In this document: positions 16,040-58,400 of the stretch, one piece after another
Layout: each line of letters opens with the position of its first letter
How positions within the stretch are numbered: position 1 is the first letter of the stretch
Source of the DNA: Dillenia suffruticosa
Taxonomy: Eukaryota; Streptophyta; Magnoliopsida; Dilleniales; Dilleniaceae
Direction: 5' to 3'
DNA: 64,000 nucleotides
Assembly: GCA_033439265.1 (NCBI GenBank)
Contig: JAVTVX010000015.1
Coordinates: 23,551,947-23,615,946 of the forward strand
Position numbers and translations under genes: made by a program
Notes under the pieces: model-generated
What the model saw: the letters and a program-made list of their open reading frames with translations, nothing else
Database searches by the model: none
Told to the model about the DNA's origin: nothing

Positions 16040-16326
16040 TCTCTCAACTAAATGCCTCATGGTGGTATCCTCTTGGCTCTATGCTTGAAATGTGACGTTA
16101 ATACAGGATGTAACTCTTGACTGGGTAGACACGACACACACTTTCAGCTCTACGCCTTAAAATGCGTCATTAATACGGGATCTATCTCATGACCAGATAG
16201 ACGCGGCTTACACTCTGGGTTCTATGCCTTCAAATGTGTCGTCAATACAAGATGTAACTCTCAGCCAAGTAGATATGGCCCACACTCTTAGCTCTATGCC
16301 TCGAACGTGTCATCAATGTGGGATAT
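16040..16326 (+). repeat. 75-bp minisatellite, left part (about 4 units)
   Basis: Units of about 75 bp carry CTCTATGCCT, then an AATGTGTCATCAATA-like phrase, GGATGTAACTC, and GGTAGACACGRCCCACACTC. Four units are seen before the nested element interrupts the array; the array resumes at 24053. Confidence 0.85.
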
Positions 16327-17796
16327 TGGTCGGGTTGTCGAAACCCTCAAATTAATACTGATTCTCCCAATACAACAAATTGTAGCAATAGTAGTTACCA
16401 GGTCAAATCTCAAGGGAATTATGTTAACTTAACTCCTTAGTAATGTCAAAATAAAATGGGGGGTTTATAAAAGAAATTTCTAAATCAAAATTAAATAGGT
16501 AAAATTAAAAAACAAATCAAATATGCAAAAATATTAAAATTTAAAGAAGAAATTCAATTCACCAAACTCCGATTCAAGGGTTCATATATTCGATTGTCTT
16601 ATTGATCATTGGTTGAAAATATTATTCTTGCAATTCAAGCATTTAATCTTAAATCTATTAGGATAGCCATAATAAATCTTGTATTTTCCTAAAATAATTG
16701 ACCAAATCCAGCATCCAGTCAAAACTTATCATTAATCGACTGGACACGATAGCGTTCCATATCAAATAATGACAGCATTAAGTTCTATGAAAACAGTTAA
16801 ACCAAAATACAAATAACCAGGATAGCCGTACAATTATTCGATTTTGGTTCATCGATTCCTTAGATTAAAATGAATATCGGCAAACGACCCATAAACATAT
16901 ATAACCTATTTGCTACTCGTACCATTCATTTATGACAATTATGGATTACTGAAATTCTGGATGCAGTAAAAAAATTGATATTGAATTAAATTATCAGATT
17001 AACCAATACCAATCTTTCATAAAAATAAACCAAGAATCAATGAATACTTGAATAAAAGACAAGAAATTAAATAAAATACATAACTTCACAATGAAGAACA
17101 ATCGATTAAAATTCCCCTTGAATCAGAATAAATAAACTAGCCATTCATGGTGGTAAGTATCAATACAAGAAAATAAAAAATAATGTTCTTAAAAAGAGAG
17201 AAAAAAATAAAAAATAAAACCTAAAGAGAGATTGAATGAACTGTCATGAAGTTCCTCTCTTTTCTCCTTAAGATGCAGCCATCTCCTTGGAGTATTGTGT
17301 TTCTTTGCAACAGCCCTCCCTTTTCTTGTGTAGAGAGTATTATGTTGTGTCTTTGAGTGCAGCCCCTTTTGTATTTAAATAAGTAAGGTAGCTGGCCTCT
17401 TTTTATGAAAATAGGAAACTTTCCTTCCATCTAGTCTTCCAATTTGATTAGGACTCTTCCCCTTCATAGAAAATAGGAAAGAAGACATTTTCTCCTAAAG
17501 AATAATGCAACTTTCCTTTCTTCTAGTTTTCTAATTTAATTATGATTCTTCCTATTGAGAAAATTAGAAACTCTACTAGAATGCTGAAATTAAAATTCAA
17601 ACTTCCCTTCTTCAAAGTCCAATAAGATGTCTTGACCCAATTAGTTCCAAAATTGCCTTATTAAGCCCAATTTGCTCCAAGTCTTCAATTTCAATCTCCT
17701 AAAAATAAAATTCAATAAAACCAACCATTAGTGCATTAAACAATTCAAATTCAAATCATGATAACAATAATAAATTGACAAAATTGCATGTTATCA
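16327..17796 (-). repeat. 3' LTR of the nested element (1470 bp)
   Basis: In plus-strand sense it begins TGGTCGGGTTGTCG and ends GCATGTTATCA. It matches 22583-24052 throughout with scattered substitutions. A TATA-like TATTTAAAT lies near 17370, about 430 bp from the U3 start in element sense. Confidence 0.95.
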
Positions 17797-20700
17797 AATT
17801 CCCCCACACCAAACCAATGTTTGTCCTCAAGCATTCACTAGATTAATGTCACACAAGTATTCTCTTCTTCACTCCTTCCCCTCTTTCAATTCATCTTCAA
17901 ATAATTTCAAAACAGCACACATCGAAAAATTCAAGCAAAAATAACAATTCAGAGAGCAACTGATCATAATTTTAAAACTTTAAAAGAAAATATAAGCATC
18001 CCATCAAGTTCGATAATTTCATCAAAATTCAATATATCAAGATTCAATCTCTCATTAAATAAAATACATAACCTCACAATGAAGAACAATCGATTAAAAT
18101 TCCTCTTGAATCAGAATAAAGAAACTAGCCACTCATGGTGGTAAGTATCAATACAAGAAAATAAAAAATAATATTCTTAAAAAGAGAGAAAAAATAAAAA
18201 AATAAAACCTAATGAGAGATTGAATGAACTGTCATGAAGTTCCTCTCTTTTCTCCTTAAGATGCAGCCACCTCCTTGGAGTATTGTGTTTCTTTGCAGCA
18301 GCCCTCCCTTTTCTTGTGTAGAGAGTATTATGTTGTGTCTTTGAGTGCAGCCCCTTTTGTATTTAAATAAGCAAGGTTGCCGGCCCCTTTTTGTGAAAAT
18401 AGGAAACTTTACTTCCATCTAGTCTTCCAATTTGATTAGGATTCTTCCCCTTCATAGAAAATAGGAAAGAAGACATTTTCTCCTAAAAAATAATGCAACT
18501 TTCCTTTCTTCTAGTTTTCTAATTTAATTAGGATTCTTCCTATTGAGAAAATTAGAAACTCTACTAGAATGCTGAAATTAAAATTCAAACTTCCCTTCTT
18601 CAAAGTCCAATAAGATATCTTGACCCAATTAGTTCCAAAATTGCCTTATTAAGCCCAATTTGCTCCAAGTCTTCAATTTCAATCTCCTAAAAATAAAATT
18701 CAATAAAACCAACCATTAGTGCATTAAACAATTCAAATTCAAATCATGATAACAATAATAAATTGACAAAATTGCATGTTATCAAACTCCCCCACACCAA
18801 ACCAATGCTTGTCCTCAAGCATTCACTAGATTAATGTCACACAAGTATTCTCTTCTTCACTCCTTCCCCTCCTTCAATTCATCTTCAAATAATTTCAAAA
18901 CAGCACACATCGAAAAATTCAAGCAAAAATAACAATTCAGAGAGCAACTGATCATAGTTTTAAAACTTTAAAAGAAAATATAAGCATCCCATCAAGCTCG
19001 ATAACTTCATCAAAATTCAATATATCAAGATTCAATCTCTCATTAAATAAAATACATAAACTCACAATGAAGAACAATCGATTAAAATTCCCCTTGAATC
19101 AGAATAAAGAAACTAGCCACTCATGGTGGTAAGTATCAATACAAGAAAATAAAAAATAATGTTCTTAAAAAGAGAGAAAAAAATAAAAAATAAAACCTAA
19201 TGAGAGATTGAATGAACTGTCATGAAATTTCTCTCTTTTCTCCTTAAGATGCAGCCACCTCCTTGGAGTATTGTGTTTCTTTGCAGCAGCCCTCCCTTTT
19301 CTTGTGTAGAGAGTATTATGTTGTGTTTTTGAGTGCAGCCCCTTTTGTATTTAAATAAGCAAGGTAGCCGGCTCCTTTTTGTGAAAATGGGAAACTTTCC
19401 TTCCATCTAGTCTTCCAATTTGATTAGAACTCTTCCCCTTCATAGAAAATAGGAAAGAAGACATTTTCTCCTAAAGAATAATGCAACTTTTCTTTCTTCT
19501 AGTTTTCTAATTTAATTAGGATTCTTCCTATTGAGAAAATTAGAAACTCTACTAGAATGCTGAAATTAAAATTCAAACTTCCCTTTTTCAAAGTCCAATA
19601 AGATGTCTTGACCCAATTAGTTCCAAAATTGCCTTATTAAACCCAATTTGCTCCAAATCTTCAATTTCAATCTCCTAAAAATAAAATTCAATAAAACCAA
19701 CTATTAGTGCATTAAACAATTCAAATTCAAATCATGATAACAATAATAAATTGACAAAATTGCATGTTATCAAATTCCCCCACACCAAACCAATGCTTGT
19801 CCTCAAGCATTCACTAGATTAATATCACACAAGTATTCTCTTCTTCACTCCTTCCCCTCCTTCAATTCATTTTCAAATAATTTCAAAACAGCACACATCG
19901 AAAAATTCAAACGAAAATAACAATTCAGAGAGCAAGTGATCATAGTTTTAAAACTTTAAAGAAAATATAAGTATCCCATCAAGCTCGATAACTTCATCAA
20001 AATTCAATGTATCAAGATTCAATCTCTCATTAAATAAAATACATAACCTCACAATGAAAAATAATCGATTAAAATTCCCCTTGAATCAGAAAAAAGAAAC
20101 TAGCCACTCATGGTGGTAAGTATCAATACAAGAAAATAAAAAATAATGTTCTTAAAAAGAGAGAAAAAATAAAAAATAAAACCTAATGAGAGATTGAATG
20201 AACTGTCATGAAGTTCCTCTCTTTTCACTTTAAGATGCAGCCACCTTCTTGGAGTATTGTGTTTTTTTGCAGCAGCCCTTCATTTTCTTGTGTAGAGAGT
20301 ATTATGTTGTGTTTTTGAGTGCAGCCCCTTTTGTATTTAAATAAGCAAGGTAGCCGGCCCTTTTTTGTGAAAATAGGAAACTTTCCTTCCATCTAGTCTT
20401 CCAATTTGATTAGAACTCTTCCCCTTCATAGAAAATAGGAAAGAAGACATTTTCTCCTAAAGAATAATGCAACTTTCCTTTCTTCTAGTTTTCTAATTTA
20501 ATTAGGATTCTTCCTATTGAGAAAATTAGAAACTCTACTAGAATGCTGAAATTAAAATTCAAACTTCCCTTCTTCAAAGTCCAATAAGATGTCTTGACCC
20601 AATTAGTTCCAAAATTGCCTTATTAAGCCCAATTTGCTCCAAGTCTTCAATTTCAATCTCCTAAAAATAAAATTCAATAAAACCAACCATTAGTGTATTA

Positions 20701-21310
20701 AACAATTCAAATTCAAATCATGATAACAATAATAAATTGACAAAATTGCATGTTATCAAATTCCCCCACACCAAACCAATGCTTGTCCTCAAGCATTCAC
20801 TAGATTAATGTCACACAAGTATTCTCTTCTTCACTCCTTCCCCTCCTTCAATTCATCTTCAAATAATTTCAAAACAGCACACATCGAAAAATTCAAGCAA
20901 AAATAACAATTCAGAGAGCAAGTGATCATAGTTTTAAAACTTTAAAAGAAAATATAAGCATCCCATCAAGCTCGATAATTTCATCAAAATTCAATGTATC
21001 AGATTCAATCTCTCATTAAATAAAATACATAACCTCACAATGAAGAACAATCGATTAAAATTCCCCTTGAATCAAAATAAAGAAACTAACCACTCATGGT
21101 GGTAAGTATCAATACAAGAAAATAAAAAATAATGTTCTTAAAAAGAGAGAAAAAAATAAAAAATAAAACCTAATGAGAGATTGAATGAACTGTCATGAAG
21201 TTCCTCTCTTTTCTCCTTAAGATGCAGCCACCTCCTTGGAGTATTGTGTTTCTTTGCAGCAGCCCTCCATTTTCTTGTGTAGAGAGTATTATGTTGTGTT
21301 TTTGAGTGCA
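17066..21310 (-). repeat. Array of four 988-bp tandem units plus a partial fifth
   Basis: Unit boundaries at ATTAAATAAAATACATAAC fall at 17066, 18054, 19042, 20029 and 21015, giving spacings of 988, 988, 987 and 986 bp. Each full unit holds, in element sense, about 257 bp of the internal 3' end including the polypurine tract, followed by about the first 731 bp of the LTR (U3 side), with its TATA-like box. The fifth copy is cut at about 21310, where it joins the gag/protease-like coding. Units are nearly identical by eye. An open frame of 69 codons repeats at 17221-17430, 18209-18418 and 19197-19406, exactly one period apart; it is a by-product of the repeat, not a gene. Confidence 0.93.
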
Positions 21311-22500
21311 GGCCCTTTCCTTTGTGAGGCGCATATGACTTTCCTTCCATATCTAATTGTGCATTCAATTCAAAATCAATATCAAATTTTTCTTCACAAA
21401 TTCCCTGCACAATTAAATAAAATATATCAGCAGAATAAAGTGATTGACACTCATTTGGGTACTTCATAGGATCGAAAATAATAAATTTCACAATCTCGCC
21501 TTCGAACTCGACGGAGAGAGTACCCTCATCCACATCTATTTTGATTTTTGTTGTCTTCATGAATGGTTGTCCTAATAGAAGTGGAGCTGAATTTGTGATA
21601 GTGTCTCCTTCCATTTTCAAGATGTAAAAATCAATTGGAAAAATTAATTCGTTAACCTGCACCAAAACATCTTCAACAATCCCCTCTGGATCAGCACATT
21701 TTTCAGGTAGAATTCCTTTGTTGATATCACATACATTTTTACCCATCTCATCACCTCTTATTTTCCCTACTTTTTTCTCGTATTCTTCTATCTTGGATTC
21801 CTCAAACTTAATTGGACTTTCATCGATGGCCTTATCCTCTTCTTCTTCATCCTTAATTTCATCTACCTTCTTGGACGATGGTGGGGTTGATCGCAACACC
21901 ATTGCACTATCATTCTCCTTAGGGTTTACTACCGTTTGTGAAGGTAATTTCCCTGAGATTCGAACCTCCAAATTGCTAACCGAAGTGCCTAGCTGAGTGA
22001 TTTGATTCCCTAAATTTTGAATACTAGCTCTCGTTTTCTGTTGAAATTGTTGAGTATTAGTCGCGAGAGCCTTAACTATATCCTCTAAAGACATACTAGA
22101 ATTTGAGGGTTGTGCAGGTACGGGTGTTGTTCTGTTGAAGTGTTGCCATCTTGTGTGTCCTCCTTGGTGTCCATAGCTCAAGTTTGGCTGATCCCTCCAT
22201 TCAGGATTATAATAATGGAAGAAAAGATCATACGTACATTGAGGTTAATCAGGGAATTCTCCTACCATATTTACTTGTTGAATGAAATCTTCTTGTAGGG
22301 ATGAACACATATCTGTCGGATGTCCGGGAACTGAGCGTATGCCACAAACTTTGGTTGCACGTATTTGCCTTGCAGCCATCTGACGAACCAAAGCAATCAA
22401 TTCAGAAATTTGATTTTCAAAATTCGAGTGACTTACCTCATGAGCTGGGTTCTCGATGCACAAGGGATGTTGGTTCAAAATTGATGCAGCTAACTCCATC
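21138..22500 (-). CDS. gag C-terminal and protease-like coding of the nested element
   Basis: Minus-strand open frames at 22245-22499 and 21138-22181 carry Ty3/gypsy features: a GHPTDMC zinc-knuckle-type phrase, then SYGHQGG, a glutamine-rich coiled stretch, an acidic linker, and an aspartic-protease-like region with VQVNELIFPIDFYILKME, LLLGQPFMKT and KIDVDEGTLSVEFEGE. This wording is typical of plant Athila/Tat polyproteins just before reverse transcriptase. The last 60 or so residues of the 347-codon frame come from the LTR-derived repeat unit, so they are not native to the polyprotein. The coding is a fossil with a few breaks and no pol. Confidence 0.85.
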
Positions 22501-22560
22501 TTTTCCTATCCAAAAATCAATAAACAAGTGAAAAGCACAAACTAAGAAATTAAAATAGTT

Positions 22561-22580
22561 CCCCGGCAACGGCGCCAAAA
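22561..22580 (-). other. Primer binding site of the nested element (tRNA-Asp type)
   Basis: The minus strand reads TGGCGCCGTTGCCGGGG immediately inside the 5' LTR, separated by two bases. It is complementary to the acceptor end of plant tRNA-Asp (GTC), the primer used by Athila-type elements. Confidence 0.92.
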
Positions 22581-22582
22581 TT

Positions 22583-24052
22583 TGGTCGGGTTGTCGAAAC
22601 CCTCAAATTAATACTGATTCCCCCAATGCAACAAACTGTAGCAATTGTGATTACCAGGTCGAATCCCAAGGGAACTATGTTAACTTAACTCCTTAGTAAT
22701 GCCAAAATAAAATGGGGGGTTTATAAAAGAAATTCCTAAATCAAAATTAAATAGGTAAAATTAAAAGACAAATCAAATATGCAAAAATACTAAAATTTAA
22801 AGAAGAAATTCAATTCACCAAACTCCGATTCAAGGGTTCATATATTTGATTGTCTTATTGATCATTGGTTGAAAATATTATTCTTGCAATTCAAGCATTT
22901 AACCTTAAATCTATTAGGATAGCTATAATAAATCTTGTATTTTTCTAAAATAATTGACCAAACCCAGCATCCAGTCAAAACTTATCATTAATCGACTGGG
23001 CACAATAGCGTTCCATATCAAATAATGACAGCATTAAGTTCTATGAAAACAGTTAAACCAAAATACAAATAATCAGGATAACCGTACAATTATTCGATTT
23101 TGGTTTATCGATTCTTTAGGTTAAAATGAATATCGGCAAACGACCCATAAACATATATAACCTATTTGCTACTCGTACCATTCATTCATGACAATTACGG
23201 ATCACTGAAATCCTGGATGCAGTAGAAAAATTGATATTGAATTAAATTATCAGATTAACCAATACCAATCTTTCATAAAAATAAACCAAGAATTGACGAA
23301 TATTTGAATAAAAGACAAGAAATTAAATAAAATACATAACCTCACAATGAAAAACAATCGATTAAAATTTCCCTTGAATCAGAATAAAGAAACTAGCCAC
23401 TCATGGTGGTAAGTATCAACACAAGAAAATAAAAAATAATGTTCCTAAAAAGAGAGAAAAAAATAAAAAATAAAACCTAAAGAGAGATTGAATGAACTGT
23501 CATGAAGTTCCTCTCTTTTCTCCTTAAGATGCAGCCACCTCCTTGGAGTATTGTGTTTCTCTGCAGCAGCCCTCCCTTTTCTTGTGTAGAGAGTATTATG
23601 TTGTGTTTTTGAGTGTAGCCCCTTTTATATTTAAATAAGCAAAGTAGCCAGCCCATTTTTGTGAAAATAGGAAACTTTCATTCCTTCTAGTCTTCCAATT
23701 TGATTATGACTCTTCTTCTTCATAGAAAATAGGAAAGAAGACATTTTCTCCTAAAGAATAATGCAACTTTCATTTCTTCTAGTTTTCTAATTTAATTAGA
23801 ACTCTTCCTATTGAGAAAATTAGAAACTCTACTAGAATGCTGAAATTAAAATTCAAACTTTCCTTCTTCAAAGTCCAATAAGATGTCTTGACCCAATTAG
23901 TTCCAAAATTTCCTTATTAAGCCCAATTTGCTCCAAATCTTCAATTTCAATCTCCTAAAAATAAAATTCAATAAAACCAACCATTAATGCATTAAACAAT
24001 TCAAATTCAAATCATGATAACAATAATAAATTGACAAAATTGCATGTTATCA
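22583..24052 (-). repeat. 5' LTR of the nested element (1470 bp)
   Basis: Same length and ends as 16327-17796. In the first 110 bases at the PBS end I count about eight differences, and about seven in the next 230; most are C/T or A/G. Confidence 0.95.
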
Positions 24053-24700
24053 GATATAACCCCCAACCGGGTAGATATGGCCCATACTCTCTCGGCTTCA
24101 TGCCTCAAAATGCATTGTTATTACGAGATGTAACTGCCGACCAAGTAGACAAGGCTCACACTCTCTCGTCTCCGTGCCTCGAAACATGTCATCAAGACGG
24201 GATGTACTTGTCGACTGGATATACATGACCTACACTCTTGGCTTTATGCCTCAAACGTATTGTCAATATGGAATGTAACTCCCGACTAGGTAGATGTGAC
24301 CTACACTCTCTTGACTCCACAACTCAAAACGTATCATCAATACAGGATGTAATTCCCCATGGGGTACGTGTAACCCATACTCTTAGTTTTATGCCTTCAA
24401 ATGTGTCATCAATATGAGATGTAAATTCCGACCGGGTAGACACGACCCATACTCTTGGCTTTATACCTCAAATATGTCATTAATATGGGATGTTACTCTT
24501 GACTGTATAGACATGGCCCACACTCTCAACTCTACGCTTCAAAACATTTTCTTAATACGAGATATAACTCCTGATTGAGTAAACATGGCCCACACTCTTG
24601 GCTCTATGCCTCCAAATATATCATCAATAAGGGATGTAACTCTTGATCGAGTAAATACGGCCCACTCTCTCATCTCTATGCCTCAATAGGGTTCTGCACC
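24053..24700 (+). repeat. 75-bp minisatellite, right part (about 9 units)
   Basis: Continuation of the array at 16040-16326 after the nested insertion. Units recur at about 24090, 24170, 24240, 24315, 24387, 24463, 24530, 24605 and 24677, spaced about 70-80 bp. They are considerably diverged from one another. Confidence 0.85.
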
Positions 24701-49755: not shown

Positions 49756-50495
49756 ATTTAGAGAAAATATTATGATATTATAATATTATAAATATTATAA
49801 TAATAAATATATTAAGTAAAATATTTTTAAAATTATTTTTAAATTAAAAAATTCATATTCGAAATAATTTTACGATTATATTAAAAATACTAGAAATATA
49901 CAAAATCTTTTTGTATTTATAAACATACTTTAATTTAATATTATGGTATTAGAAAAATTATAATTTTAAAAATACTAACTAAATATATTCAATTTTTTTT
50001 GCATATATAAAAGGGTAACAAACAACTTATCATATAGGTTTCAATACTTAGCCGAGGTAGACAAAAATGAGTTTGGGGTTTTGGAAGTGATTTTAATTTT
50101 GTTTTTATTTTTTATTTTTCGGTTTATATAGTTTGCGCATGAATAAAAATAAATTCTTAATAAATTATTTCATGAACTTTTTTAATTTTTTCAAGTGTTA
50201 TTTTAAGTACAGAACGATGTGGCTCTACACAGTGCAAAATAACAAAGTACAGAACGATGTAGTTCTGTGTAGCGCAAAACTACAAAATGTAAAACGATGT
50301 GGTTTTGTACAGTGCAGAACCACGAGTGTAGAACGACGTGGTTCTGCAAAGCGTAGAACCACATGGTTCTACGCGGTGTAGACTGTAGATCGATGTGGTT
50401 TTGTACTGCGTAGAACTTCAACATTTTTTTCAAATCTTTTAACAAAACTGTCGAATATAATAACAAAGTAGTGGAGAAATTCAAATTGGTGATTA
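49738..50495 (+). repeat. Duplicated block C, copy 1
   Basis: Runs from GTGCAGAACATGATATTTAG through an AT-rich core, AAAAGGGYAACARACAACTTA, CCGAGGTAGACAAAAATGAG and a hairpin-repeat cluster (50210-50415) to AGTAGTGGAGAAATTCAAAT. It is matched in the same order by 51505-52625. Two inverted partial copies lie at 56385-56800 and 57868-58400. Confidence 0.85.
50210..50415 (+). repeat. Hairpin repeat cluster 2, units of about 40-45 bp
   Basis: Units alternate GTACAGAACGATGTGGTTCT and GTGCAGAACCACG-like phrases: an ACGATGTGG core flanked by complementary AGAAC and GTTCT arms. Confidence 0.8.
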
Positions 50496-50889
50496 AAAAT
50501 TTTTTAGAAGAATTACATTTCTAAGATATCAAAATCTTTATGGGATAGAGAGACAGTTACTTCAAAAATAAAAAAAAAAGATTTAATGTATGTCATTTTA
50601 GAAATTATGTTTCATTAGTTTATTATAATTCGTTAAATTTAAGAAAAAAATTTAGCACACAGAATTAACATAATACGCTTTGATAATTCCATGGTTCGTA
50701 GAACAAAATTGACTGTATTTCGCATAACTAACATGATTTCATAGTTCTGCGTAGTAAGCTATTTTTTTCCCTTTGTATAAAATTATATTTGGAATATTTT
50801 ATCTTTCATGATATGATAATACTATTTTTATGGAAAAAATTCCATCAAATAAAACAGTGTCTTCTTTTTTTTTTTTGTGTTATCGAATA

Positions 50890-50920
50890 CTAGCATGTGT
50901 GCGATAGGTATAGCGCACGA
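50890..50920 (-). mobile_element. Candidate Helitron 3' terminus (minus strand)
   Basis: On the minus strand, GTGCGCTATACCTATCGCAC can form a stem with a 5-bp base. It is followed 5 nt later by CTAG and then T, matching the hairpin plus CTRR plus T pattern of Helitron 3' ends. A possible 5' end in the same orientation lies near 58926. Confidence 0.4.
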
Positions 50921-51354
50921 CTTTTATTTTTTCTACTCAAAGTGATCGATAAAAATAATAAAATATTATTATAATATTGGCATGTTAAAAACATAATCAA
51001 AATATATCTTAACTATTAATTTATTAATTTATTTTACGTATTAGATTGTGTTAAATTGAAAAGTAAAAACAAAAAAATTAAAGTGGTGAAAAATTCTACA
51101 CTACAGAACTAAGTTCTACACGTTTTGCAGTGTAGAACTACAAAATATTATAATTTAGCACCTAAAAAAAATAATTCGTCGACGAAAACATTACAAATAT
51201 TTTGGATACTTTTTATAACTTATCTCCTCAAAACATGCATTTTTTATATATTTTAGATTTTAGACATGTATTAATATTATTCAGATATTTTTTTCATTTT
51301 AATTTATAATATTTAGATCGAATTTAAACAAATGAGAATGAAAAAAATGGACAC

Positions 51355-51510
51355 AGTGCCCTATAGAACTACATAGTTCTACACATACAGAACTATATAG
51401 TTCTGCACATGCAGAACCATAGAATACAGAACCAAGTTCTGCACTGTGTAGAATACAGAACCAAGTTCTGCACATGCATAACCACATAGTTTTGTAGTTC
51501 AACAGTGCAG
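51355..51510 (+). repeat. Hairpin repeat cluster 3
   Basis: Copies of ACATAGTTCTRCACATRCAG and GAACCAAGTTCTGCAC, matching cluster 1 in content. It precedes block C copy 2 just as cluster 1 precedes copy 1. Confidence 0.8.
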
Positions 51511-52625
51511 AACATGATATTTAGAGAAAATATTATGATATTATAATATTATAAATATTATAATAAAAAAAATATTAAGTAAAATATATTTGAAAATATT
51601 TTTATTTTAAAAAATTCATATTCGAAATAATTTTACGATTATATTAAAAATATTAGAAATATGCACATTTTTTTTCATTTATAAAAATACTTTAATTTAA
51701 TATTATAGAATTATAAAAATTATAATTTTAAAAATACTAACTTAAAATAAGCAATTTTTTTGCATATATAAAAGGGCAACAGACAACTTATTATATAGGT
51801 TTCAATCTTAGTCGAGGTGGACAAAAATGAGTTTGGGGTTTCGGAAGTGATTTTAATTTTGCGTTTATTTTTTATTTTTCGGTTTATATAGTTTGCGTCT
51901 GAATAAAGATAAATTTTTAATAAATTAATTTATAAACTTTTTAAATTTTTTCAAGTTTATTTCAAGTACAGAACGACATGGTTTTGCGCAGTGTAGAACT
52001 ACAAAGTGCAAAACGACGTACTTTTGCATAGCGCAAAACCACGAGTGCAAAACGATGTGATTCTACAAAACGCAAAACCACCCTGTTCTGCAGAACCACA
52101 TGGTTCTGCACAATGCAAAACAATGCGGTTCTGCATTGCGCAGAACTTCAACATTTTTTTCAATTTTTTTTTTAATTTTTAAATTAAAAAAATTTATAAT
52201 TATATTAAAAATATCAAAATTATTTGAAATAAATGATGATTAGAGAAAATATTACAATATTATAATATTATAAAAATTATTATAATAAAAATATTAAGTA
52301 AAAAATATTTGAAAATATTTTTAAATTAAAAAAATTATATTCGAAATAAATTTACGATTATATTAAAAATACAAAAAAATATGCAATTATGCAACTAATA
52401 TTTTTTTCTATATTTTTCTTTTCAGTCTGTAGTTGGCCTTCTTTTTCGATCTTGTCTCGAAATCCGTCTCTAATTTTCTTCTTCATATAATTGCTTTTTT
52501 ATCTAATAAGGAAATATTAAACGGAAATGAAGAAAATTTCATCAAAATTTTCAAGTTGTGACTCTGTTTAGTACACAAAACTGCCAAACATAACAACAAA
52601 GTAGTGGAGAAATTCAAATTGATTG
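51505..52625 (+). repeat. Duplicated block C, copy 2
   Basis: Parallels 49738-50495: GTGCAGAACATGATATTTAG, the AT-rich core, GTCGAGGTGGACAAAAATG, a hairpin cluster (51965-52150), then an insertion-rich AT stretch before AGTAGTGGAGAAATTCAAAT. It is followed by segment S copy 2. Confidence 0.85.
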
Positions 52626-52689
52626 CCAGCCTTCTGTGATTAGACTTTCTCTTCTCGTTTTATTTACCGTGTAGATGGAGTTGTGTGAT

Positions 52690-52990
52690 CTTATTAGTCA
52701 TTATAAAAGGGGGCCTCTTTATCTATTTCTCACTCTCAGTAGGGCAAATGGAGAAATTCAATTGCTCGTTATAGAAGTGATTGCTCTCTTCTTTGCTATG
52801 AAAGTTTGTGTTTGTCTTTCTCATTTTTTAACATTTATTTTGTTCCGCTTTATTCTACCTTTATTTTGCTTACTGTTTTTCGCATTTATTTCTGATTAAA
52901 AAATGTTAACTTTTTTTAGTTCTTGTTGAGGAGTGTGGTATGTCTAATAATGATGATTATGGTGTATGGTGGCGATTCATCTGTTCTGAA
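52690..52990 (+). repeat. Segment S, copy 2
   Basis: Counterpart of 49020-49360. The ORF at 52675-52899 (74 codons) belongs to it and shows no known domain. Confidence 0.6.
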
Positions 52991-55240
52991 ACCATTTTAA
53001 AAGATGTTGACAAGTTTTTCTATATAAAAGTGGTTAGATTTTGATTTTCCTTTCACTTTTCTAAATTGCGCTATCTTTTGTTAGGAGTTTATTGGTTCTG
53101 CGTATTGAATATCACGCTTGTCAATATAAATTAGAACTTGCACTCTTAGTGTCCTGTAAATTTTAAGCATGGATGCTATTCTTTTGAAATTTGTGGAGGA
53201 CAAGTAGTCATAGGAGGTTACACCGGAAACTTTGAAATTTGTCAGCTCTTTAGGGTCCCAAATTTGTTGATTTGAGAGTGATTTTTAAGAACTTATAGTT
53301 CAGAGTAGAATTTGGAGATTTCTAAATTAATTATTTTTAGAACAAATTAAACCTTAATATCCATGTGTTATGGTTCTTTCAACATTTCAACTAAAACTGT
53401 AATTTCAATGAACCAGGTTGCTACAAGCTTTGCTGCAGAGGGATTATTTTTTATGAGTGAGCTAAAGTAATGGAATGATTTGTATGGAGAAGAAGGTTCA
53501 TGGAAGAGGCAACAGTTGACTTACTTTCTTTAGACAAGTGAAGAGCAGAATTTATGATAAAATCAGTTTCATTCTTTAAAAATGGGGTTAGAATTTGAGG
53601 AAAGCCCAAAACCCCCTTTCAACTAAGAGAGAGGCTCAACAATGTCAGCCTGAGACGTTCATTTGGAAAGTTTAGCCGTAGCTTCATAGCCTCCTATACA
53701 ACAATGTCCTTGTAACTAAAACCTACCAAAAAAAAAAAACTCACATCAACAGTGTCAACAATATTTGTTTTAAATGGTTTCTTTGGCATTCATGTGTCAT
53801 GCTTGAGAGACAAGAAAATTATATAGCCATTCTACAGCCTAATTCCTACCACTGTATGGGTTTTAGGTTATTATAAATGTGTGGTATTTGAAACATGGTT
53901 ATGGGATTCTAGATAGTTACATAGATTTATATTGAATTTGTTCCATATCTTGTATTCATATAGTTTATATAGTAGTATTTTGTACATTGTTCTTGTGTAA
54001 AATCAGTTTCTCCCTTTCTTTGCTTCATGTTTGTTTATAATCTTTTCCTTTTACCCTTACCCTTTTGATACAAGGTCATATTATTTGGTTGACTCAATTT
54101 GATGCTCCACCGCTGGTGTAACTCCATCACCAGAGAAGACTTTATTTTTTTATTTTGTCTTTATATTTTTATTAGAAGGTCAGAAATTAGGAATTGATTT
54201 TCCTTTTGTTTTTCTATGTAAATGAGCTTGGTGGCCGCAGTTGGTCTTTCATCCCAAATGGTGAATACCAGCCAGCGGCCTTCTTTTCATGGGGACATGC
54301 CATCCCATTTGGAGTTTCGTGTCTAACCCCACCCTACTTAGCCTTTTAGGGTACAAATAAGTCATTTTAATGTAAATAATAAATTGTTTATTTAAATAAT
54401 TTAAATATTAAATAATTTTTTATGAATAAAAATGAGAAAATTAACATATATGATGCTTAAATTTGATTTTTTAATTAATAAATTTAATTTTGAAGACAAA
54501 ATTTTTAATATTTAGAAAAAAAAACCCACTAAAAGTAAGGTGTTGGCTTGAAATGCTTAAAAAACCTAAGACTCTCCCCGATTTCTATTATCTTCCCCTA
54601 TATCTCTCTCTTTAACTTGTGATTTATATCGTCATTAGAAACTCCTAATTAACTTTGAATTGTAAGCATTAATCATACAATTTCGGAAACAAAAATTAAT
54701 TATTTTGATGTTTAATCTACTTTGAAATGCTATAACTTTGAAGATATGGTTTGATATTATTTTGTGTGCCTTAATTTCGAAACTAAACCAAGTAAGACAC
54801 ACCATTGACTACATCAACTATATTCTACGTTGCTTACGTCTTAGGTTTATTATGCTAGAGTTAACCTAGGGTTTAGTTGCCTCAGACCAGATATGTTTGA
54901 TAGTTCGTCAGCCCATTGAGCATATTTTCCTTTCTATTTGGTGTTTTTTACGTTCTAAAGAAAAAAATGATAATCAACTGAGTTACTAGATTTGTTTTCT
55001 TTCTTTTAATTATTTAATTTCTTTTATGATGTCGAATTTAATATTATATTATTTTAATTATTTAATTATTTTAATCGATTTATTATTTTATTATTATTTT
55101 CTATTTAAAATCCTTAATTTTAAAATTTTTTAATATTTATAAAAAATAATTCAATGATATCGTTCAGGTATATCAAAAAGGAAAAATTAATAAGGAGTGA
55201 GATAAGAACAGAAAAAAAAAACAACACACATTATGGTGTG
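52991..55240. other. Unassigned AT-rich region
   Basis: No coding region is supported. The text at 53400-53560 and 54060-54330 is less AT-rich than its surroundings and could be remnants of a transcribed unit, but no reading frame or splice pattern is convincing. Confidence 0.4.
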
Positions 55241-55249
55241 GCGGTTGTT

Positions 55250-55735
55250 GGTTCTTCACTATACTTCAATATTATAAGAATGTTATCGCAGAACCACCAA
55301 TATTATAAAAATGTTATCACAGAACCATTAATATTATAAAAATGCCATCACAGAATCACCAATTTACAAGAATGGTATCGCAGAATCATCAAACCACCAA
55401 TTTATAAGAATGTCTTCGCAAAACTACCAATATTACAAAAATGTTATCGGAGAACTACCAATATTATAAGAGTGTCATTGCAGAACCACCAATATTACAA
55501 GAGCGCCATTGGAGAACCATCGATATTACAAGAATGCCATTTCTATAGTTTTACAGAACTATCAATATTACAAAAATGCAATTGCAAAACTACTAATTTA
55601 CAAGAATACCATTACAAAACTAACAATATTACAAAAATGCTATTGTCATAGTTCTGTGGATAGTTCTTCATTATGTTTCAATATTATAAGAATGTCAATA
55701 TAGAATTACTAATATTACAAGAATTTCATTATAAA
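55250..55735 (+). repeat. ~34-bp tandem repeat, about 12-13 units
   Basis: Units follow the pattern CAGAACCACCAATATTA, then YAARAATGYYATYG. The array opens and closes with related TTCTTCA...TTCAATATTATAAGAATG phrases (55252-55290 and 55664-55695). The CAGAAC core links it to the hairpin repeats around it. Confidence 0.85.
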
Positions 55736-56384
55736 AAATAAATATATGTAAAAAATATTATAATTTTATTATATACAAAATATTCGTGCATACATTAAAA
55801 TACTTTAATACTAATATTAAGATATTAGAAAAAATTATGATTTTAAAAGTACTAAATAAAAAAAATTCATATATTTTTATATTAAAAAATATCTAAAAGT
55901 GTTATATTAAAATATTATATAATAAATAATTTTTTTGTTATAATATGATACTATAAAAATATTTTTTAAAATTCTAAGTATACGCAAAATACTGATAATT
56001 TTATTAAAAAAATTTATGATTCTACTAAAAATATAACAACGATTTGAAATAAATGATATATATTAAAAATATTTTAACACATATGCACTATTACTCAAAC
56101 ATTAAGTGCCCAAGTTCTGTGAGTTCTGTATCGTGTAGAACTATATAATACAGAGCCATATAGTTTTGCACCTAATACAAAATATAAAAATATTAAATAA
56201 TAAAAGAAAATTATGTCATTCAATGATTTAATTTAAGTAAGTTTATAAATTTTTTTATCTAATTTAAAATTATATAAGAATAAAACATTTAATTTAAATA
56301 TTTAGATATTTATTTAATATTAAATTTATTATGTATTAAATATATTATATTAAAATGGAAAAGTATATTTAATTATATTAGACA

Positions 56385-56800
56385 TTTAATTACTTTTTCA
56401 TGTATTTTTGTGTGGATAGACATATTTTATTTAAAATAACAAAAAAATATTTTTTTTGGACAAACTTTTCGAATTTTCAGAAATAACATTTGAGAAAAGT
56501 TTAAAAATTCATGAACCAATTTATTAAAAATTTATCTTTATTCATACACAAACTATATAAACTGAAAAATAAAAAATAAGGGTGAAATTAAAATCACTTC
56601 AGAATCCCAAAACTCATTTTTGTCCACCTCGACTAAGCTTTTTTGCCTTCACCAACAATTTTTTTTTTTAATTATGTTCTACGAAGTGGAGAACTATAAA
56701 TGGTTTTGCGAAGTACAGAACTATCAGGTGGTTTTGTGAAGTGCAGAACTACCAAAATAGTTTTGTCAAGTAAAAACTATTCTAATTTTTTGTAGGTAAA
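56385..56800 (-). repeat. Inverted partial copy of block C (copy 3)
   Basis: The reverse complement of 56460-56640 matches the AGTCGAGGTGGACAAAAATG to TTCATGAAC part of block C. It continues into a short hairpin cluster (56680-56780) with GAAGTRCAGAACTA units. Confidence 0.8.
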
Positions 56801-57000
56801 CAATATTTAGGTTAAAGTTTAATATTTGGTTCAGATAAAATATTAATTTTAATGTTTAATTTTTTAAATTACTTTTAATATTATATAAATATTAAAATAT
56901 TAAAATTAATTTTTAAAATTTTTATTTTTTAAAAGCTTTAAATCAAATATTAATATTTATGAATTTTTTATAGTTAAATTTTTAAATATTATAATTTTAG

Positions 57001-57175
57001 ATTAAACCATTCAAGTGGTATTGATCCAAAGTGTTTTTGTTGTGGTTTTGGTCGATGGAAGCTCAGTATTTGGTGGACTGAGGGAGGACTTTTGTTGATC
57101 AAGCAAGGCTTTGGTTGACAAAGGAAGGACTGACTTTGGTCGATAAAACAGTCTACAAAAGCATTAAGCAAGAAT
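57001..57175. repeat. Degenerate GGTCGAT/GGTTGAC short repeats
   Basis: TTTGGTCGATGGAAG, TTTGGTGGACTGAGG, TTTGTTGATCAAG, TTTGGTTGACAAAGG and TTTGGTCGATAAAAC recur over about 130 bp. A minus-strand ORF of 60 codons covers it without known similarity. Confidence 0.5.
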
Positions 57176-57867
57176 CCAAGTCTATGAATTTTTAAATTCA
57201 GTTTATTTTCAAATCTTATTCATTTATTTGTAAATGAATTTAAAATTTTAATTTTATGTATTTTATAAAACTTTTAAATCTCTCTTTTCTTTTATTCTAT
57301 ATATTCTTCTCTTCTATATTTAGATTTTTTTTTGAAAATTACTCAATTTTTTAATCCAGTTCTTTTATACATTTTTATATTTATTCATTCAAATTTATAA
57401 TTATTTTTTTGATTTTGACATTTAAAAATTTTTAGATTAAATATTAATATTTATAAATTTTTTACACTTAAATTATTTAATATTTTGATTTTAAATTTTC
57501 ATATCAGATTTCTAATTTGATTTCAAATTTCTATCATCTTTACTCTGCATTTGGTTCCTCTCTGTCAGAATAATTAGTGTCTGCTCTACTCAAGAAAGAG
57601 ATTAATGGCAGTGGTGTTTACTGAGTAGCATATAGGTTCCAAAAATGGGTCATTTGAATTTTATAGGCAGTTTTATCACCCTTCCATTGAAAATTTCCTA
57701 TCTTTTATTTTATTAATATTAAAGTATTAATATTAATATTAAAATATTTTTACATTCACACAAATATTTTACATATAAAAATATTTTAGATGATTTAAGA
57801 AATGTATCAGTTAGATTAAAATTTTCATTTATAATTAATCTATTATTTGTACATAAACTATTAAAAA

Positions 57868-58400
57868 TTAATTACTTTTTCATGTATTTTTGTGTACATA
57901 GACATATTTTATTTAAAACAACAAAAAAATATTTTTTTGGACAAACTTTTAGATTTTTTAGAAATAATATTGGAGAAAATTTAAAAGGTTCATGAACCAA
58001 TTTATTAAAAATTTATCTTTATTCATACACAAATTATATAAACTAAAAAATAAAAAATAAAAGCGAATTTAAAATCACTTCTGAAATCCAAAACTTATTT
58101 TTGTCTACCACGACTAAGCTTTTCTGCCTTCGCCAACAAATTTTTTTTTAATTACGTTCTGTGAAGTGTAGAACTATAAATGGTTCTGCGAAAAGTGGAA
58201 TTAGCAAGTGGTTCTGCGAAGTGTAGAACTAAAATGTGATTCTGCGAAATACAGAACTACCAAGGTCATTATGCGAAATGCAGAGCTGCCAAGTGGTTCT
58301 GCGAAGTGCAGAACTGCCAAGATAGTTCTGCGAAGTGCAGAATTACCAAGTTAGTTCTGTCAAGTAAAAAGTATTCTGATTTTTTGTAGGTAAACAATAT
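57868..58400 (-). repeat. Inverted partial copy of block C (copy 4) with a 28-bp hairpin array
   Basis: A direct duplicate of 56385-56800. Its hairpin array (58150-58375) has seven to eight units of about 28 bp: GTTCTGCGAAGTGCAGAAC followed by about 9 bp (TRCCAAGTG). Each unit can fold into a 7-bp stem (GTTCTGC/GCAGAAC) with a 5-base loop. Confidence 0.85.

Follow-up and report, generated by a model that had tools for sequence, protein, structure and literature searches.

Pieces of retrotransposons can become tandem repeats, and whether this happens in the particle at reverse transcription or later in the chromosome is not settled; the excerpts of the literature compared below leave the question open as well. 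A copy in Dillenia suffruticosa, in which both LTRs and the target duplication are found beside a four-unit array, makes the order of events testable if the 5' LTR is used as an internal clock. It is located in a 64,000-nucleotide stretch (the window, to whose first letter positions refer unless a contig is named) within a 25.8-Mb contig; the genome scanned comprises 596 Mb.

The element is oriented on the minus strand and reads from 24052 to 16327. It shows the features expected of an LTR retrotransposon, namely two LTRs with TG...CA ends, a target-site duplication of 5 bp (GATAT, 16322-16326 and 24053-24057), a PBS adjoining the 5' LTR and a PPT adjoining the 3' LTR. Its parts and its flank are listed below.

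16076..16301, no strand: 72-bp minisatellite of the left flank, resuming at 24125-24686
16327..24052, minus strand: whole non-autonomous LTR retrotransposon, 7726 bp, delimited by the LTR ends TG...CA and the flanking GATAT
16327..17796, minus strand: 3' LTR (LTR3), 1470 bp, the first 731 bp being the LTR part of unit 1
17797..18053, minus strand: internal 3' end with PPT, copy 1, adjoining the real 3' LTR
18054..18784, minus strand: A, truncated LTR copy
18785..19041, minus strand: internal 3' end with PPT, copy 2
19042..19772, minus strand: B, truncated LTR copy
19773..20028, minus strand: internal 3' end with PPT, copy 3
20029..20758, minus strand: C, truncated LTR copy
20759..21014, minus strand: internal 3' end with PPT, copy 4
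21015..21318, minus strand: D, 304-bp partial LTR copy starting just downstream of the TATA-like box and joined to the protease-like remnant at AAAG
21319..22499, minus strand: gag/protease-like remnant with two open pieces, one of 84 aa and one belonging to a 347-aa ORF
22560..22577, minus strand: PBS
22583..24052, minus strand: 5' LTR (LTR5), 1470 bp, with 67 differences to the 3' LTR (K2P 0.0475)

The insertion took place within the 72-bp minisatellite, as the joined flanks, compared by eye, read through as minisatellite. The units of this minisatellite (16076-16301 and 24125-24686) match each other at 69-72%. Elsewhere in the window, several short tandem arrays are spread over about 8 kb (50205-58359), with units containing GGTTCTGC- and GCAGAACC-like motifs, partly self-complementary.

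The PBS is presumably the complement of the 3' end of a plant tRNA-Asp, and the remnant at 21319..22499 is taken, from its motifs, to be derived from gag and protease. Its gag/PR-like frame continues into the partial LTR copy D, forming a fused 347-aa ORF (21138-22181, minus strand). A zinc-knuckle-like CCHC motif is present in the relatives L009 and L010, and one of its cysteines is changed to arginine in the element. No Pfam family scored above the cut-off for the gag/PR-like pieces of the element. Among its ORFs of at least 70 aa, only gag/PR-like remnants were found of the set that characterizes an autonomous Ty3/gypsy element (protease, RT, RNase H, integrase), and no RT was recognised in the element or in the two relatives scanned (L009, L010). 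Assignment to Athila or another OTA lineage of Ty3/gypsy depends on RT/RH/INT phylogeny; according to the excerpt of PMC6317226, a tRNA-Asp PBS is compatible with non-chromoviruses, without deciding the lineage.

The tandem array foreseen by the original prediction is plainly visible in a self-comparison. It consists of four units of 986-988 bp and a partial unit, all about 97% alike, with starts exactly as predicted at 17066, 18054, 19042, 20029 and 21015. The spacings are 988, 988, 987 and 986 bp, followed by 304 bp of partial unit (21015-21318), which ends just short of a TATTTAAATA box. Shifted by one unit (17066-20331 versus 18054-21318), the array aligns with itself at 97.0% identity over 3268 positions, far beyond chance. 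A full unit is composed, as proposed, of about 731 bp of LTR and about 257 bp of internal 3' end including the PPT; in element order the protease-like remnant is followed by D, 257 bp, C, 257 bp, B, 257 bp, A, 257 bp and the full 3' LTR. An unrelated satellite is excluded, the unit being the retrotransposon family's own LTR and 3' end. The array is absent from the output of TRF because the longest period in that run was 500 (periods <=500). Two of the predicted counts were too high. Instead of five PPT/LTR-start junctions there are four (pattern starts 17791, 18779, 19767 and 20753), the fifth LTR start, at 24052, being that of the 5' LTR, which has no PPT; and instead of up to six promoter-like regions, five exact TATTTAAATA TATA-like boxes were counted, both LTRs included (23637, 20343, 19357, 18369 and 17381). 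The extra promoters of the array are putative and, like its extra PPTs, exist at the level of sequence; the suggested effects on strand transfer, transcription or small RNA are hypothetical.

The array had been thought to stand in place of pol. Five relatives were fetched (L009-L013), four of which (L009-L012) have both LTRs and the layout LTR-PBS side-gag/PR-1.68 kb-257 bp-PPT-LTR, the gag/PR-like remnant being followed by a segment of about 1.68 kb (1672-1683 bp by alignment ends), the 257-bp 3' end and finally the LTR. This segment is absent from the array-bearing element, which has the 304-bp LTR piece and three extra PPT-U3 units at that place. In L013, the match is confined to the LTR and the 3' end. 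Scanning L009 and L010 for ORFs of at least 80 aa yielded six, among them two gag/PR-like pieces in each relative and, in L010, a 115-aa frame that overlaps the gag/PR region in antisense; the 1.68-kb part held at most one 80-aa frame, in L010. Pfam returned nothing above the cut-off for the three of these six ORFs that were submitted, and no pol was recognised in either relative by the ORF scan or by Pfam on those three. Family members of this type look already non-autonomous. Because the four relatives have about 1.68 kb at the corresponding place, with no pol recognised in the two scanned, the array is not a substitute for pol, and a replacement of pol was discarded on the basis of the two relatives scanned. 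Two gag/PR-like family copies in opposite orientation, with starts 3.8 kb apart, were also observed at G000 C16:1010468-1015452, possibly an inverted duplication.

Other genomic copies with the same junction were searched by pattern, and neither junction type was found outside this locus. A 27-mer across the repeated joint (<=3 mismatches) occurs at four places genome-wide, all of them joints of this array and all exact, and a 29-mer across the entry junction (<=3 mismatches) at one place, in this element. By contrast with this single locus, the ordinary continuation (29 bases, <=3 mismatches) was found at 158 places (81 forward, 77 reverse), so the array differs from Tat/Ogre-type repeats, which are found in many family copies. 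Nor does it form the long arrays beyond one element, at several or large loci, of a retrotransposon-derived satellite, since it comprises 4.3 units at one locus. The PPT/LTR-start pattern (<=2 mismatches) occurs at 156 places; among the 100 listed, three are from this element and no pair outside it lies less than 3 kb apart, the closest such pair being on opposite strands at a distance of 3.1 kb. Uniqueness is based on these pattern scans because the first DNA search scored only 40 of 1142 candidates. Of the 44 matches of that search, 38 were located elsewhere than in the element; one of these, on C10, extends to position 988 at 89% identity, and its locus (L013) is without the joint. With the junctions detected in no other copy, there is no sign of propagation of the array. 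Six exact family PPT/LTR-start matches of the same orientation lie, among the matches listed, within about 126 kb at G000 C34:6109365-6235586 and may represent a nested cluster or a segmental one.

At the repeated joint, LTR sequence ending in TTTAAT abuts internal sequence starting with GAGAG. The internal side reads TTTATGAG in seven of the eight relatives printed and TTGTGAG in L013, and the exact homology with those seven is AT (2 bp). At the entry junction the homology is 4 bp: AAAG occurs both on the LTR side and, in the four relatives printed, on the protease side. The original prediction had the array arise by template switching at a shared microhomology, ATTAAATAAAATACATAAC, and expand by unequal exchange. 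The latter part fits; the former does not, as this 19-bp motif is LTR sequence, present also in the 5' LTR at 23322, and was not found at the internal side of the joint in any of the eight relatives, for which reason template switching at this motif was discarded. Strand transfer forced at the 5' end of the RNA was considered as the source of D, since D starts near the TATA-like box (12-16 nt after its first T, counted by hand). It was likewise discarded: D extends upstream of the expected start and carries the changes that the 3' LTR and the units have in common.

Over the 731-bp LTR part, LTR3, A, B and C are separated from each other by K2P distances of 0.028-0.034 and each of them from LTR5 by 0.045-0.047; LTR5 and LTR3 show 33 differences in 730 positions, LTR3 and the units 20, 23 and 24. 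By column bootstrap, LTR5-LTR3 differences exceed LTR3-unit differences by 1.0-20.7 sites (P(<=0) 0.014), and the age of the array is estimated at 0.68 (0.48-0.93) of that of the insertion. Of the unpolarised differences confined to one of the five copies, 19 of 56 are in LTR5 (P 0.010 if all are equal). For polarisation, columns were dropped if less than 80% of the relatives agreed, if fewer than eight had a letter or if a compared copy had a gap, which left 705 columns for the 731-bp LTR part, 699 for the other LTR half and 293 for the D region. In six of the 705 columns, LTR3, A, B and C have a derived state that LTR5 lacks; private derived columns number 9 in LTR3, 9 in LTR5, 8 in A, 7 in B and 8 in C, two columns are derived in all five copies, and three conflict (one each for LTR3+LTR5, B+C+LTR5 and B+LTR5). 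Three columns of the D region are derived in LTR3, A, B, C and D, none in LTR3, A, B and C without D, and one column each conflicts for LTR3+LTR5, B+C+LTR5+D and C+D. In the other LTR half, 15 columns are derived in LTR3, 10 in LTR5 and 7 in both.

In the maximum likelihood tree of 18 rows, LTR3, A, B, C and D form a clade (99/98) with LTR5 outside. The AU test on the U3 part rejected neither an LTR3+LTR5 clade (p 0.111) nor a clade of LTR5 and the array, which is absent from the best tree and, when forced, is 1.47 log units worse (p 0.277). LTR3 and LTR5 group together in the tree of the R-U5 half (88/92), in which one relative is counted twice, L007 being the 3' LTR of L009 and identical to L009_3. 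LTR-LTR divergence is even over both halves (K2P 0.0469 and 0.0482); this evenness and the R-U5 grouping disfavour a 5' U3 of foreign origin. The distances of D are 0.0372 to LTR3, 0.0373 to LTR5, 0.0302 to A and 0.0234 to B, D being no nearer to LTR3 than to LTR5. LTR3 has 30 of 49 derived sites (P 0.15), and it may simply change faster than LTR5.

Because LTR3 and the truncated and partial copies have derived changes that LTR5 lacks, the rearrangement is more probably placed after insertion than in a reverse-transcription intermediate, with the AU test leaving room for the other grouping (p 0.111). The signal for this is carried by six common sites only, three of them in D, and three columns conflict. 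The order that we favour, with somewhat less assurance than the in-chromosome origin itself, is insertion, then about 1/3 to 2/5 of the changes of the 3' LTR, then duplication, the birth of a satellite being caught at its first step. At the rice rate of 1.3e-8 per site and year, which may not be that of the host, insertion would date to about 1.8 and the array to about 1.2 million years; these absolute ages depend on the rice rate, and only their ratio is based on the data.

It is less probable, though worth weighing, that the founding rearrangement occurred in the virus-like particle just before insertion (abnormal strand transfer, co-packaged RNAs) and that gene conversion later homogenised the array. 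Abnormal strand transfer was proposed for the 3'UTR repeats of the Tat lineage by Macas et al. 2009, as reported in the excerpt of PMC7004042. The two short-homology junctions are also typical of template switching, the start of D lies fairly near the expected RNA start, and the p value for LTR3+LTR5 leaves room for this course of events; an array that was there at insertion and was homogenised afterwards would show nearly the same pattern. Against these points, LTR5 lacks all six of the derived sites common to LTR3, A, B and C (three also in D), the genome pattern scans revealed no sibling copy that has the junctions, and D includes sequence upstream of the typical start site, going by the usual spacing.

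That one unit was duplicated by misassembly or by mixing of family copies is very improbable. Tandem repeats of about 1 kb in a repeat-rich genome are prone to such errors, but LTR3, A, B and C carry 7-9 private derived sites each and in the tree cluster with D and not with the other 12 sequences of the family, the 27-mer is exact at all four joints and found nowhere else, and the contig around the array extends over 25.8 Mb. Still further from likely is a mobile variant spreading as such, its four PPTs and five TATA-like boxes altering replication, as both junctions were detected at this locus alone and no close PPT/LTR-start pair appears outside the element among the 100 of 156 places listed.

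The array is thus probably a post-insertion, in-chromosome rearrangement of a single Ty3/gypsy-type copy from a family without recognisable pol. In a first step, microhomology-mediated (illegitimate) recombination after insertion would have linked a site in the LTR with the internal 3' end at AT, yielding a direct duplication of 988 bp. Unequal exchange between sister chromatids, or conversion, acting on the long direct repeats could then have raised the number to 4.3 units. Finally, the 1.68 kb would have been lost, and the last unit cut to 304 bp, by a deletion that reached from the protease-like remnant into that unit, at AAAG. The first and third steps may also have been a single event, a deletion with the 304-bp LTR piece as filler.

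This array is a small example of a kind already known from CRM1TR and CRM4TR of maize, which the excerpt of Sharma et al. 2013 (PMC3648361) describes as tandem repeats of part of the LTR and the adjoining UTR. There, illegitimate recombination is proposed to form a UTR~LTR junction, with deletion of the internal region and subsequent growth by gene conversion. The D. suffruticosa unit likewise combines part of the LTR with adjacent UTR at a novel UTR~LTR junction. It uses the PPT-U3 side, however, whereas the LTR-then-UTR segment of CRM1TR/CRM4TR is taken, from that excerpt, as the PBS side. The maize arrays are long and centromeric or pericentromeric, with 187 full-length CRM1TR monomers extracted (PMC3648361), in contrast to 4.3 units inside one element that keeps both LTRs and the target duplication. 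The 3'UTR tandem repeats of Ogre/Tat elements lie, like the present array, between the coding region (here a remnant) and the 3' LTR and are reported to seed satellites; in the excerpt of PMC7004042 they are described as frequent in the lineage and as spreading along with the elements, while the D. suffruticosa unit includes LTR sequence and was seen in a single copy. Tandem arrays of Cassandra, ascribed to recombination or template switching, are built of LTRs with an internal domain between them according to the excerpt of PMC7215508, compared to a truncated LTR with only 257 bp of internal sequence here. Among the literature matches listed, no title or abstract opening dealt with this element or with a single-copy PPT-U3 array, by which absence is not proven.

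Taken alone, the array concerns one defective copy and leaves ideas on the workings of the element unchanged; a satellite could potentially grow from it. If the proposed order is true, the 5' LTR dates the insertion and the divergence between the 3' LTR and the units dates the array, which would separate an in-chromosome origin from one at reverse transcription, and the same use of the 5' LTR as a clock would be applicable across whole genomes.
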